Assembly (NCBI GenBank): GCA_023267795.1
Contig: JAHFMP010000003.1
Coordinates: 1 to 19,051 of the forward strand
DNA from: Candidatus Woesearchaeota archaeon
Lineage (GTDB): Archaea; Nanobdellota; Nanobdellia; Woesearchaeales; DSVV01
DNA: 19,051 bases
Reading direction: 5' to 3'
In this document: positions 13,118-16,712 of the stretch, in pieces
Layout: every line of letters begins with the position of its first letter
Position numbering within the stretch: position 1 is the stretch's first letter
Notes under the pieces: generated by a model
The model's database searches: none
What the model saw: only the letters and a program-made list of their open reading frames with translations
Told to the model about the DNA's origin: nothing
Made by a program: the position numbers and the translations under genes

Positions 13118-13147
13118 CGTATTTCGTGCAAAGCGCAGAAAATAAAG

Positions 13148-13181
13148 GTACGTATTAAGTCGCACCTAATTTAATACGTAC
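13148..13181. repeat. Perfect 11-bp inverted repeat between convergent PHP and helicase genes
   Basis: GTACGTATTAA (13148-13158) pairs exactly with TTAATACGTAC (13171-13181) around a 12-nt loop gtcgcacctaat. It may be a bidirectional 3'-end or processing signal, or part of a mobile-element remnant, since the adjacent 13196-13232 resembles the end of the element at 15971-16204. Confidence 0.75.
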
Positions 13182-13191
13182 AAATAAAGAG

Positions 13192-13209
13192 TTTCAGAGA
13201 GTTCTGAAA
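13192..13209. repeat. Second short hairpin, TTTCAGA/TCTGAAA
   Basis: TTTCAGA and TCTGAAA are separated by gagt. The right arm forms part of the sequence shared with the ends of the inverted-repeat element near uS15. Confidence 0.55.
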
Positions 13210-13232
13210 TCACTTGTGGAATCTGACGGCAC
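13196..13232 (+). repeat. Diverged copy of the terminal repeat of the 15971-16204 element
   Basis: By hand alignment without gaps, 30 of 37 bases match the reverse complement of the left end of the element (15971-16007), including TCTGAAATCACT and GAATC. It also matches the right end (20 of 26 bases up to GGCAC). No convincing partner end was found upstream in this 125-nt spacer, so it may be a solo end or a decayed copy. Confidence 0.6.
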
Positions 13233-13242
13233 ACCATAACAT

Positions 13243-15212: not shown

Positions 15213-15485
15213 GTGAAATCAAAATCAACATCTCTTGCACTGTTTTTTAAGGAAAAACCAACTAAAGTACTGCTCACTATTTTTGAAAGCAAACATGCAC
15301 TTTATGCTTCATCGCTTGCAAAAAAGATTCGCTATACTTATACCTACATCAATGAAGTGCTTCATGCAATGGAACAGAGTGGAATTATTGTTTTTGAAAA
15401 ACATGGAAGACTGAAACTGCTTGTATTAACTCAAAAAGGAAAAAAGATCGCAGAAGAAGTACAGAGAATTTTACTCAATCAATAA
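15213..15485 (+). CDS. Small winged-helix DNA-binding protein
   Basis: This 90-residue protein is a single winged helix domain. Helices about 18-30 and 33-41 lead to a recognition helix (YTYINEVLHAMEQSGIIVF), followed by a beta wing (KLLVLTQKGKKIAEEV). It resembles MarR/ArsR-like archaeal regulators with a final Lys-rich helix. The start is GTG, 27 nt after the TATA-like gtttaaata and therefore probably leaderless. It shares a divergent spacer with the helicase gene, and its last 15 nt overlap the last 15 nt of the uS15 gene on the other strand. Target genes are unknown; its own promoter and that of the helicase are the nearest candidates. Confidence 0.72.
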   Translation: MKSKSTSLALFFKEKPTKVLLTIFESKHALYASSLAKKIRYTYTYINEVLHAMEQSGIIVFEKHGRLKLLVLTQKGKKIAEEVQRILLNQ

Positions 15486-15926
15486 TCTCATTTTACTTTT
15501 GTCAAATTTCCACTCTGTTGGCAATCTGCCTCTATTTTTATAATATTTTACCAAGCGCAAAATCTTTGATGTAGTCAACTGCAGGCCTCGCTTTGCTGTC
15601 ATGTCCTGAGTGTTCGCATCAAAATGCTTTTCAAGTGATATGCTTTTCCTGATCAACCCAACAATATCATCAGGAATCTCTGGAACAAGTGATTTTTCCT
15701 GTAAAATATCTGTAATTGCTTTTCCAGTTATTGCTTTAATACTTGGAATACCATACGTATCCCGCAAAAGCAAGCCAATTTCAGCAGCATTTTTTCCTTC
15801 TTTTGCAAATTTGAGAACAAGCATTTCAACTTCTTTTGCTTTATAGCGGACCCATGCCTGTACTTTTTTTTCTACAGGTTTTTTACTGCCGGATTTTCCT
15901 TTTCTTCCTGAATGCATTCTTGCCAT
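15471..15926 (-). CDS. rps15: Small ribosomal subunit protein uS15
   Basis: uS15 binds the central domain of 16S rRNA and helps assemble the small subunit platform. The 151-residue protein has the archaeal/eukaryotic arrangement: a basic N-terminal extension starting MARMHSGRKGKSGSKKP, an extra helical part (VRYKAKEVEMLVLKFAKEG, IGLLLRDTYGIP), then the classic S15 core with LTTSKILRLVKYYKNRGRLP. The frame is open a further 17 codons upstream, but the Met at 15926 matches the family start and lies 27 nt from a TATA box, so the transcript is probably leaderless. A 234-bp inverted-repeat element begins just upstream of this promoter. The 3' end overlaps the convergent winged-helix gene by 15 nt. 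Confidence 0.96.
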   Translation of the reverse strand: MARMHSGRKGKSGSKKPVEKKVQAWVRYKAKEVEMLVLKFAKEGKNAAEIGLLLRDTYGIPSIKAITGKAITDILQEKSLVPEIPDDIVGLIRKSISLEKHFDANTQDMTAKRGLQLTTSKILRLVKYYKNRGRLPTEWKFDKSKMRLLIE

Positions 15927-15948
15927 AATAAAATGAAACATTGACTTG

Positions 15949-15957
15949 TTTATAAAT
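15949..15957 (-). promoter_or_regulatory. TATA box of the uS15 gene
   Basis: Minus-strand atttataaa is centred 27 nt before the ATG at 15926. The direct repeat of the inverted-repeat element starts 5 nt farther upstream, where the BRE (transcription factor B) contact site would lie. Confidence 0.65.
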
Positions 15958-15961
15958 ATTT

Positions 15962-15970
15962 CTCCGATAT
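15962..15970. repeat. 9-bp direct repeat (putative target site duplication, left copy)
   Basis: CTCCGATAT here is repeated exactly at 16205-16213. The two copies abut the inverted-repeat element, as expected for staggered-cut insertion. Confidence 0.65.
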
Positions 15971-16204
15971 GAGCCATCCGATTCAGCGAGTGATTTCAGA
16001 GATCTCTTTTCCACAAGAAATTAAGCCATACATTTTTTCCGCCGCCTGAAAACGCACGCTTGCCTCTTATTTGTCCCCCTTAATGAGAATAAGGGGGACA
16101 AAAAGAGACAAGGAAAAGAAAAAGTGAATAGAGATAGGCGGCGGAAAAAATGTTCCTCTGTTTCCTGTCGAAGTTGCATATTTCACTTGAGAAATCGGAT
16201 GGCA
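15971..16204. mobile_element. Putative 234-bp MITE-like element (non-coding, inverted ends, long hairpin)
   Basis: The ends match as inverted repeats: GCCATCCGATT (15973-15983) with AATCGGATGGC (16193-16203), exact over 11 bp and partly extended to about 21 bp. Inside are a perfect 18-bp inverted repeat (16030-16047 with 16136-16153, containing TTCCGCCGCC) and a central perfect 12-bp hairpin (TTGTCCCCCTTA 16071-16082, TAAGGGGGACAA 16090-16101, loop 7 nt). The central stem extends imperfectly to 16059 and 16112. No open frame of note is present. Exact 9-bp direct repeats flank it. Together this fits a miniature inverted-repeat transposable element moved by a transposase encoded elsewhere. A transcribed structured RNA is the main alternative. 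Confidence 0.65.
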
Positions 16205-16213
16205 CTCCGATAT
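16205..16213. repeat. 9-bp direct repeat (putative target site duplication, right copy)
   Basis: CTCCGATAT is identical to 15962-15970. The bases on either side of the two copies differ, so the match is exactly 9 bp. Confidence 0.65.
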
Positions 16214-16257
16214 CGTAAATTCTGTTTATTAGGTTATATTACAAAACAGAATTTACG
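16214..16257. repeat. Perfect 14-bp inverted repeat upstream of aIF1A
   Basis: CGTAAATTCTGTTT pairs exactly with AAACAGAATTTACG around a 16-nt loop beginning ATTAGGT. It lies immediately after the putative target duplication and 63 nt before the aIF1A TATA box. Confidence 0.75.
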
Positions 16258-16259
16258 AG

Positions 16260-16316
16260 ATTGATAATTCTGACAGATGTAACATAACTGTAACATAATT
16301 AGCAGGAATTATCAAT
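16260..16316. repeat. 11-bp inverted repeat enclosing a tandem 11-nt repeat, next to the aIF1A promoter
   Basis: ATTGATAATTC (16260-16270) pairs with GAATTATCAAT (16306-16316). Inside, TGTAACATAA occurs twice (16279-16288 and 16290-16299) with an 11-nt period, about one helical turn. The right arm ends 3 nt before the TATA box, where a bound regulator could act. Confidence 0.6.
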
Positions 16317-16319
16317 AAG

Positions 16320-16328
16320 CATATAAAT
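16320..16328 (+). promoter_or_regulatory. TATA box of the aIF1A gene
   Basis: catataaat is centred 26 nt before the ATG at 16350. Confidence 0.65.
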
Positions 16329-16349
16329 GAGGCCTTCTTCGACTGAGAT

Positions 16350-16712
16350 ATGGAAAGAAGTTTTCGCAAGAAAAAAGAAACAGAAGACATGACGCCGGAA
16401 GAGATTGAACAGATGGAAATACGGCGCACAGTGATGCCGAAAGACAAAGAAGTATTTGGGATTCTTGAACAAAGACTTGGCGGAAGCAGAAACAAGGTAC
16501 GCTGCCTTGATGGAAAAACACGCATCTGCAGAATTCCGGGCAGATTAAAAAGAAGATTGTGGGTAAGGGAAGGAGATTTGCTGCTTGTTGAACCATGGGA
16601 ATTATCAGGAAATGATAAAGGTGATATTGTTCATAAATACAAACCATCGCAGGTTGCACACCTCAAAAAGCTTGGTGTTTTGAAAAGCGCAGATGAATTT
16701 GAAGAATTTTAA
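16350..16712 (+). CDS. eif1A: Translation initiation factor aIF1A
   Basis: aIF1A binds the decoding (A) site of the small ribosomal subunit during start selection. The protein (120 residues) has a basic, acidic-patched N-terminus, then the OB-fold core: EVFGILEQRLGGSRNKVRCL, DGKTRICRIPGRLKRR, WVREGDLLLVEPWEL, and a short helical tail ending DEFEEF. These blocks match archaeal and eukaryotic IF1A. The ATG is 26 nt after the TATA box catataaat, indicating a leaderless mRNA. Two inverted repeats and an 11-bp tandem repeat lie directly upstream of the promoter. It converges on the Asp-rich surface protein gene with a shared A/T-run spacer. Confidence 0.95.
   Translation: MERSFRKKKETEDMTPEEIEQMEIRRTVMPKDKEVFGILEQRLGGSRNKVRCLDGKTRICRIPGRLKRRLWVREGDLLLVEPWELSGNDKGDIVHKYKPSQVAHLKKLGVLKSADEFEEF

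Follow-up and report, generated by a model that had tools for sequence, protein, structure and literature searches.

Miniature inverted-repeat transposable elements (MITEs) are usually explained as decayed relatives of one transposon, and the ends of a transposon must match its transposase. In the portion of PMC10969869 drawn on here, archaeal MITEs are listed from Sulfolobus, Halobacterium, Haloquadratum walsbyi, Desulfurococcus kamchatkensis and "several other archaeal genomes". Our search for literature joining "miniature inverted-repeat transposable", archaea and Woesearchaeota found no report, which for Woesearchaeota fits the remark, made in an earlier sequence-only reading of this DNA, that such elements are little described in DPANN archaea. 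The closest precedent that we found, among the matches listed, for a core shared between families is that of the coral CMITEs of Acropora, in which families with different terminal repeats have in common an internal region, which is conserved more strongly than the ends and whose origin is given as unknown in the excerpt consulted (PMC2872659).

The window, meaning the whole stretch of 19,051 nt of Woesearchaeote DNA that was analysed, contains an element that resembles prokaryotic MITEs, as described in the part of PMC10969869 used here, in falling within 50-500 bp, in its inverted ends and short direct repeats, and in being non-coding, multi-copy and strong in secondary structure. It differs from them in its Woesearchaeote host and in a core common to families with unrelated ends, a feature that this part of the source does not mention. 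Different ends around a conserved internal region are also its likeness to the Acropora CMITEs, but these are flanked by TTAA and tied to piggyBac in the excerpt of PMC2872659, whereas the Woesearchaeote core is accompanied by 8-bp and TA marks, consists of nested hairpins and resides in an archaeon. REP and REPIN sequences are likewise palindromic and multi-copy in the excerpts used (PMC3733652, PMC3116915), though REPs are palindromes of 20-40 bp (PMC3733652) and the window MITE is 235 bp long with 13-bp ends and an 8-bp duplication. The element and its boundaries are as follows.

15963..15970, plus strand: left copy of the target duplication TCCGATAT, from comparison of complete copies
15971..16205, plus strand: complete MITE of family A, 235 bp, with canonical ends and an 8-bp duplication; at least 20 family-A places in its own genome
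15971..15983, plus strand: left terminal inverted repeat GAGCCATCCGATT, consensus GTGCCATCCGATT, from end matches and copy comparison
16193..16205, minus strand: right terminal inverted repeat, the exact consensus on the minus strand, from exact end matches
16206..16213, plus strand: right copy of the target duplication TCCGATAT, from comparison of complete copies

The ends were fixed by comparison with other copies in the same genome, which gave the canonical family-A ends GTGCCATCCGATT...AATCGGATGGCAC. An exact 9-bp match, CTCCGATAT, is indeed present at 15962-15970 and 16205-16213 and had been taken as a 9-bp target duplication around a 234-bp non-coding segment. Since the other copies show the canonical ends, the C at 16205 closes the right end and falls outside the target duplication, so that the element measures 235 bp and the duplication 8 bp; the non-coding character of the segment held, its interior containing no ORF of at least 60 aa and no transposase gene. 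A single base is mutated in the left end (GAG instead of GTG), and the 13-bp terminal inverted repeats accordingly have one mismatch. The features noticed earlier were all found in the sequence: exact inverted ends of 11 bp, which sit within a 21-nt pair of 81%, a perfect internal inverted repeat of 18 bp and the central hairpin. The folding z-score of the element as DNA was -7.7.

The genome to which the window belongs (G000; 996 kb in 151 contigs, 89% complete) was searched with the element, which returned 48 match rows, self-matches and opposite-strand rows of the palindrome included, with 40 of the 47 candidate stretches scored; the best match other than the window had an E-value of 6e-111. 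Sorted by reading, these rows correspond to at least 20 places with family-A arms, counting the window and fragments, and at least 15 further places that match in the centre only. The remaining 12 of the 48 rows are opposite-strand or second rows of counted places, and a 25-bp match on C128 was excluded from the count. Exact matches to the family-A end numbered 14, compared to none for the reversed control. Seven copies are complete, with the core and both ends (C88, which is the window, C117, C94, C45, C144, C47 and C124), and six of them are flanked by 8-bp duplications, five perfect and all different (TCCGATAT, AATAAAAG, TATTTTTA, TATTGAAC and GAATAACA); the duplication of C94 has one mismatch, while C47 has no target duplication. 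Several other copies are cut by contig ends. One core-less mini-A of 66 bp, at C149, retains both ends without a duplication. The MITE reading and the expectation of further copies in different flanks are thus supported by at least 20 places, seven complete copies and five distinct perfect duplications, and the segment is almost certainly a genuine MITE, a non-coding mini-transposon.

We also compared the insertion site with that of a sister species. The element lies between two divergent genes, as listed below.

15471..15926, minus strand: uS15 gene (Pfam PF08069, PF00312), its start at 15926 read by comparison with the sister species
15934..15966, minus strand: conserved uS15 core promoter with TATA region, from the sister-species alignment up to the insertion point
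16350..16712, plus strand: eIF1A gene (Pfam PF01176), the divergent neighbour

The MITE abuts the uS15 core promoter, in agreement with the earlier placement of the insertion beside it. In the sister species, Woesearchaeota G002 (uS15 stretch within JACRKI010000058.1; uS15 identity to G000 72-73%), the uS15 promoter gives an alignment of 34 positions that begins within the duplication, with a score of 39 against a maximum of 29 in 200 shuffles, and no family-A element was found at the sister uS15, the best blastn match on that contig being 15 bases at E 0.09. The distal flank did not align to the sister species (score 15, shuffle mean 18), and the empty site is therefore only one-sided; no uS15 match was found in G001. 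A single copy conserved in position without empty sites, which would have spoken against a mobile element, is not what we observed, as copies are multiple and the sister promoter is without the element. Taken together, this is very probably a multi-copy MITE that has entered unrelated sites, is absent from the sister uS15 promoter and would be mobilised in trans. DPANN archaea thereby gain a set of insertions that neighbour genes and, in at least one case, a promoter.

The stretch separating the element from eIF1A (16210-16316) holds two inverted repeats, one of 18 nt (16210-16227/16244-16261) and one of 11 nt (16260-16270/16306-16316), as well as TGTAACATAA in tandem at 16278 and 16289; these are possibly regulatory. 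TATA-like boxes near copies were noticed by eye. A second transposon graveyard of the window spans 13140-13233, where a mini-B is followed by a degenerate A end.

13140..13147, plus strand: left duplication AAATAAAG of the mini-B, from flank comparison
13148..13181, plus strand: core-less mini element of 34 bp with family-B ends, from end matches and a perfect 8-bp duplication
13182..13189, plus strand: right duplication AAATAAAG of the mini-B, from flank comparison
13196..13233, minus strand: degenerate remnant of a family-A end (79% match to positions 9-46 of the 252-base query, E 0.002)

The centre-only matches in G000 turned out to be other mini-elements, of families B and C, which share the central core of the window MITE.

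16030..16047, plus strand: left arm of the outer stem, with TTTTTCCGCCGCC within it, from the 18-bp perfect internal inverted repeat
16034..16149, plus strand: core module, a 116-bp nested hairpin common to families B, C and D, from sequence matches and core comparison
16070..16102, plus strand: inner C5/G5 hairpin, its loop in both orientations among copies, from the inverted repeat, the fold and copy comparison
16136..16153, plus strand: right arm of the outer stem, with GGCGGCGGAAAAA within it, from the 18-bp perfect internal inverted repeat

The stem of the central hairpin has 13 bp (16070-16082/16090-16102), and the core of the window copy gave folding z-scores as RNA of -9.7 and -11.8 on the two strands. 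When one core each of A, B1, B2, C and D was tested, all folded into the outer stem with the long inner C5/G5 hairpin (z -5.2 to -11.8), and T5 stands at both entries of all 21 cores. In a comparison anchored on the inner stem, made without a shuffle control and counting 20 of the 21 cores (B1_C23 was left out), the second pair beyond the C4/G4 block was G-C (5), C-G (9) or A-T (1) and the fourth T-A (13) or C-G (4), while positions 2, 5, 6 and 8 include non-pairs (C-A, A-A), so that compensatory changes in this stem are suggestive only. The loop is inverted between otherwise alike copies (C45 versus C94; C47 and C84 versus C124), as would follow from folding or recombination of the palindrome in the cell, a step that we infer. 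Four right-end-only A copies begin at the A-tract closing the core (L019:1121-1180, L020:1971-2029, L021:1974-2033, L026:987-1044) and one left-part copy (L028:946-1032) ends at the same A-tract, while another left-part copy, L029, ends elsewhere within the core; such repeated breakage at the foot of the hairpin may reflect cutting of the palindrome by a nuclease. Two single-ended A copies share loci with AbiEii-type toxin-antitoxin genes (L019:1998-2648, L020:123-845).

Around this core, the ends differ between families. In G000, family B has the ends GTACGTATTAAGTC, with subfamilies B1 and B2, and family C has the ends GTAGAGGACA; a further family, D, with the ends GGCTGCGTAGAAATCC, carries the core or part of it at seven places in the sister G002, and its ends have no match with up to two mismatches in G000 and one in G001. 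Between families, the 21 cores are 59-79% identical, and when each family is represented by one core, the scores of all 10 family pairs lie at 60-124, compared to a shuffle maximum of 29. The arms, 24-63 bp long across families and bounded by hand-set borders accurate to a base or two, are unrelated in nine of the 10 pairs, with 29-294 of 300 shuffles as good; the exception is B1-B2, which share only the terminal repeat. A single branch of the core tree sets off the cores of each family, with support that is not strong for A (68/79) and D (90/90). Because the cores cluster by family, what is demonstrated is that the core is shared, with no direct sign of recent repeated exchange. The B1 and B2 cores stand apart in the best tree; a single origin of the B cores was not rejected by the AU test (p 0.286), and the idea of a double core uptake by family B, the test being compatible with one origin, was dropped.

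An 8-bp duplication is typical of IS6, though other IS families make 8 bp too, and TA at the edges is a mark of a Tc1/IS630-type mechanism. The 8-bp duplication, an IS6/IS240 trait, occurs in families A and D and in the mini-B. In family D, four of five complete copies in G002 have one, three of them perfect, and copy C26 has none; a core-less mini-D of 33 bp was recognised by eye. Unlike the mini-B in the window with its perfect 8-bp duplication, none of the three complete B copies has one (best 6 of 8, at C103). In family C, 8 of 8 left edges and 5 of 6 right ones (13 of 14 in all) carry TA; one row in L037 and another in L038 were discounted as hitting the C ends by chance. Both flanks could be read in two C copies, C76 and C109, and in neither does an exact match other than TA exceed one base; beyond the TA, C76 shows no match and C109 matches at 5 of 6 positions. 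The TA could be part of the terminal repeat instead of a target mark. Since A and D bear 8-bp marks and C has TA edges, these look like products of different transposition chemistry, and the core seems to ride on different transposition machineries.

In the explanation that we favour for family A, a transposase encoded elsewhere would bind the A ends and join them to a target whose strands are cut 8 bp apart, and repair of the gaps would leave the 8-bp target duplication. The core would be a transferable module that replaced the transposase gene between different transposon ends, through recombination or template switching at the long palindrome, and that was retained for aiding movement of the element or for letting the host tolerate it, a proposal to which we give about an even chance. 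That a nested-hairpin DNA module of ~110 bp was taken up independently, in Woesearchaeota, by mechanistically different ends (8-bp-stagger and TA-target) is a more tentative suggestion. What persists is the middle, at 59-79% identity within the ends of other transposon types, and not the ends, which makes the role of a MITE core directly testable; our best guesses for this role are a transposition aid or a bidirectional insulator.

The simplest rival is an ordinary MITE whose core was inherited from one ancestor, the core being constrained while ends and arms diverged into A-D. It agrees with the grouping of cores by family in the tree and with the single origin of the B cores that was not rejected, but we regard it as rather unlikely, as arms of 24-63 bp are dissimilar in nine of 10 pairs around cores that are still 59-79% identical, and the target marks differ between A/D (8 bp) and C (TA) although ends must match their transposase. 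A putative bidirectional transcription stop or insulator, tolerated by the host for sparing the neighbours of promoter-side insertions, is somewhat doubtful but would be compatible with the transferable module. The T-runs at both entries of 21 of 21 cores, the stable stems on both strands and the position of the window copy next to the uS15 promoter point towards it, as does the observation that none of the 34 copies examined is spanned by a start-codon ORF of at least 80 aa, a test blind to genes that the insertion itself had broken. It is no classical intrinsic terminator, however, since it is A rather than U that follows the strongest stems.

It is improbable that the core is itself a mobile palindrome inserting into other MITEs. 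Its own end repeats TTTTTCCGCCGCC/GGCGGCGGAAAAA and the similar boundaries in each family would suit such an element, but no direct repeat was seen by eye at the core/arm junctions of the copies read, and no solo core outside elements was recognised among the matches traced. A conserved regulatory or structured RNA upstream of uS15, with no transposon involved, has the very stable fold in its favour and is nevertheless extremely improbable, considering the different duplications at unrelated loci, the absence upstream of the sister uS15 and the lack of any Rfam family at gathering score in 15900-16350. We rejected this RNA, a chance repeat and a REP-like palindrome alike on the copies, the duplications and the sister absence; to our knowledge, REPs do not have target duplications.

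A transposase partner for these elements was sought as well. No autonomous element with family-A ends was found in G000, which is 89% complete and in which copies are cut at contig ends; mobilisation in trans is therefore only what we infer. The 10 ORFs on the inner side of six single-ended A copies contained no transposase families and instead matched chaperonin, ThyX, AbiE-type, MazE-like and DUF1189 families or nothing. Candidates for an IS1595 partner (transposase PF12762) and for a Tc1/IS630-type partner of family C (DDE_3, PF13358) were rejected, each being found in none of the three genomes G000, G001 and G002, of which G000 is incomplete. G000 has one IS240-type gene (PF13610), cut by the contig end at the broken end of C48 (within L127, C48:3500-6261), and just past its stop lies GTCGTATTAAAGG, by eye a B-like and not an A-like end.

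Finally, a covariance model of the core was run on 352 genomes of the order, with 10 candidates scored per genome among the matches listed. At least 15 of the 352 genomes had matches at E ≤0.01, strong only in G000 and G002 among the matches listed; G036 came next (3.8e-7), followed by 12 genomes with best E-values of 1.2e-4 to 0.0075, where ~3.5 chance hits are expected and E-values are rough. Several of the weaker matches proved on reading not to be hairpins of the core's kind. Exact matches to the core and to the family-A end were absent from viral contigs. The bare hairpin pattern TTTCTCCCCC-N-GGGGGAGAAA occurred in 10 of 352 genomes and was matched 29 times in G301, whereas the reversed control hit one genome of the 352 (G264, 8 per strand). 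Five distinct G301 copies that we read are a further MITE with the ends GGTAATGTCAAG, which resemble those of IS1; it shares only the hairpin with the core, and two of the five copies have 9-bp duplications, GCTTTGCGT and CTCTGAAAT (L110:1440-1582, L118:1444-1582). The likeness of its hairpin to the core may be either homology or convergence. Other repeats of the order with similar C5/G5 hairpins, such as this MITE, would be further cases of selection for such a core. Larger branched palindromes in which the same C5/G5 hairpin is joined to a short G/C one were observed in G296, G157 and G314 (L109:1400-1600, L106:1400-1640, L111:1-200), one of them partly in tandem.
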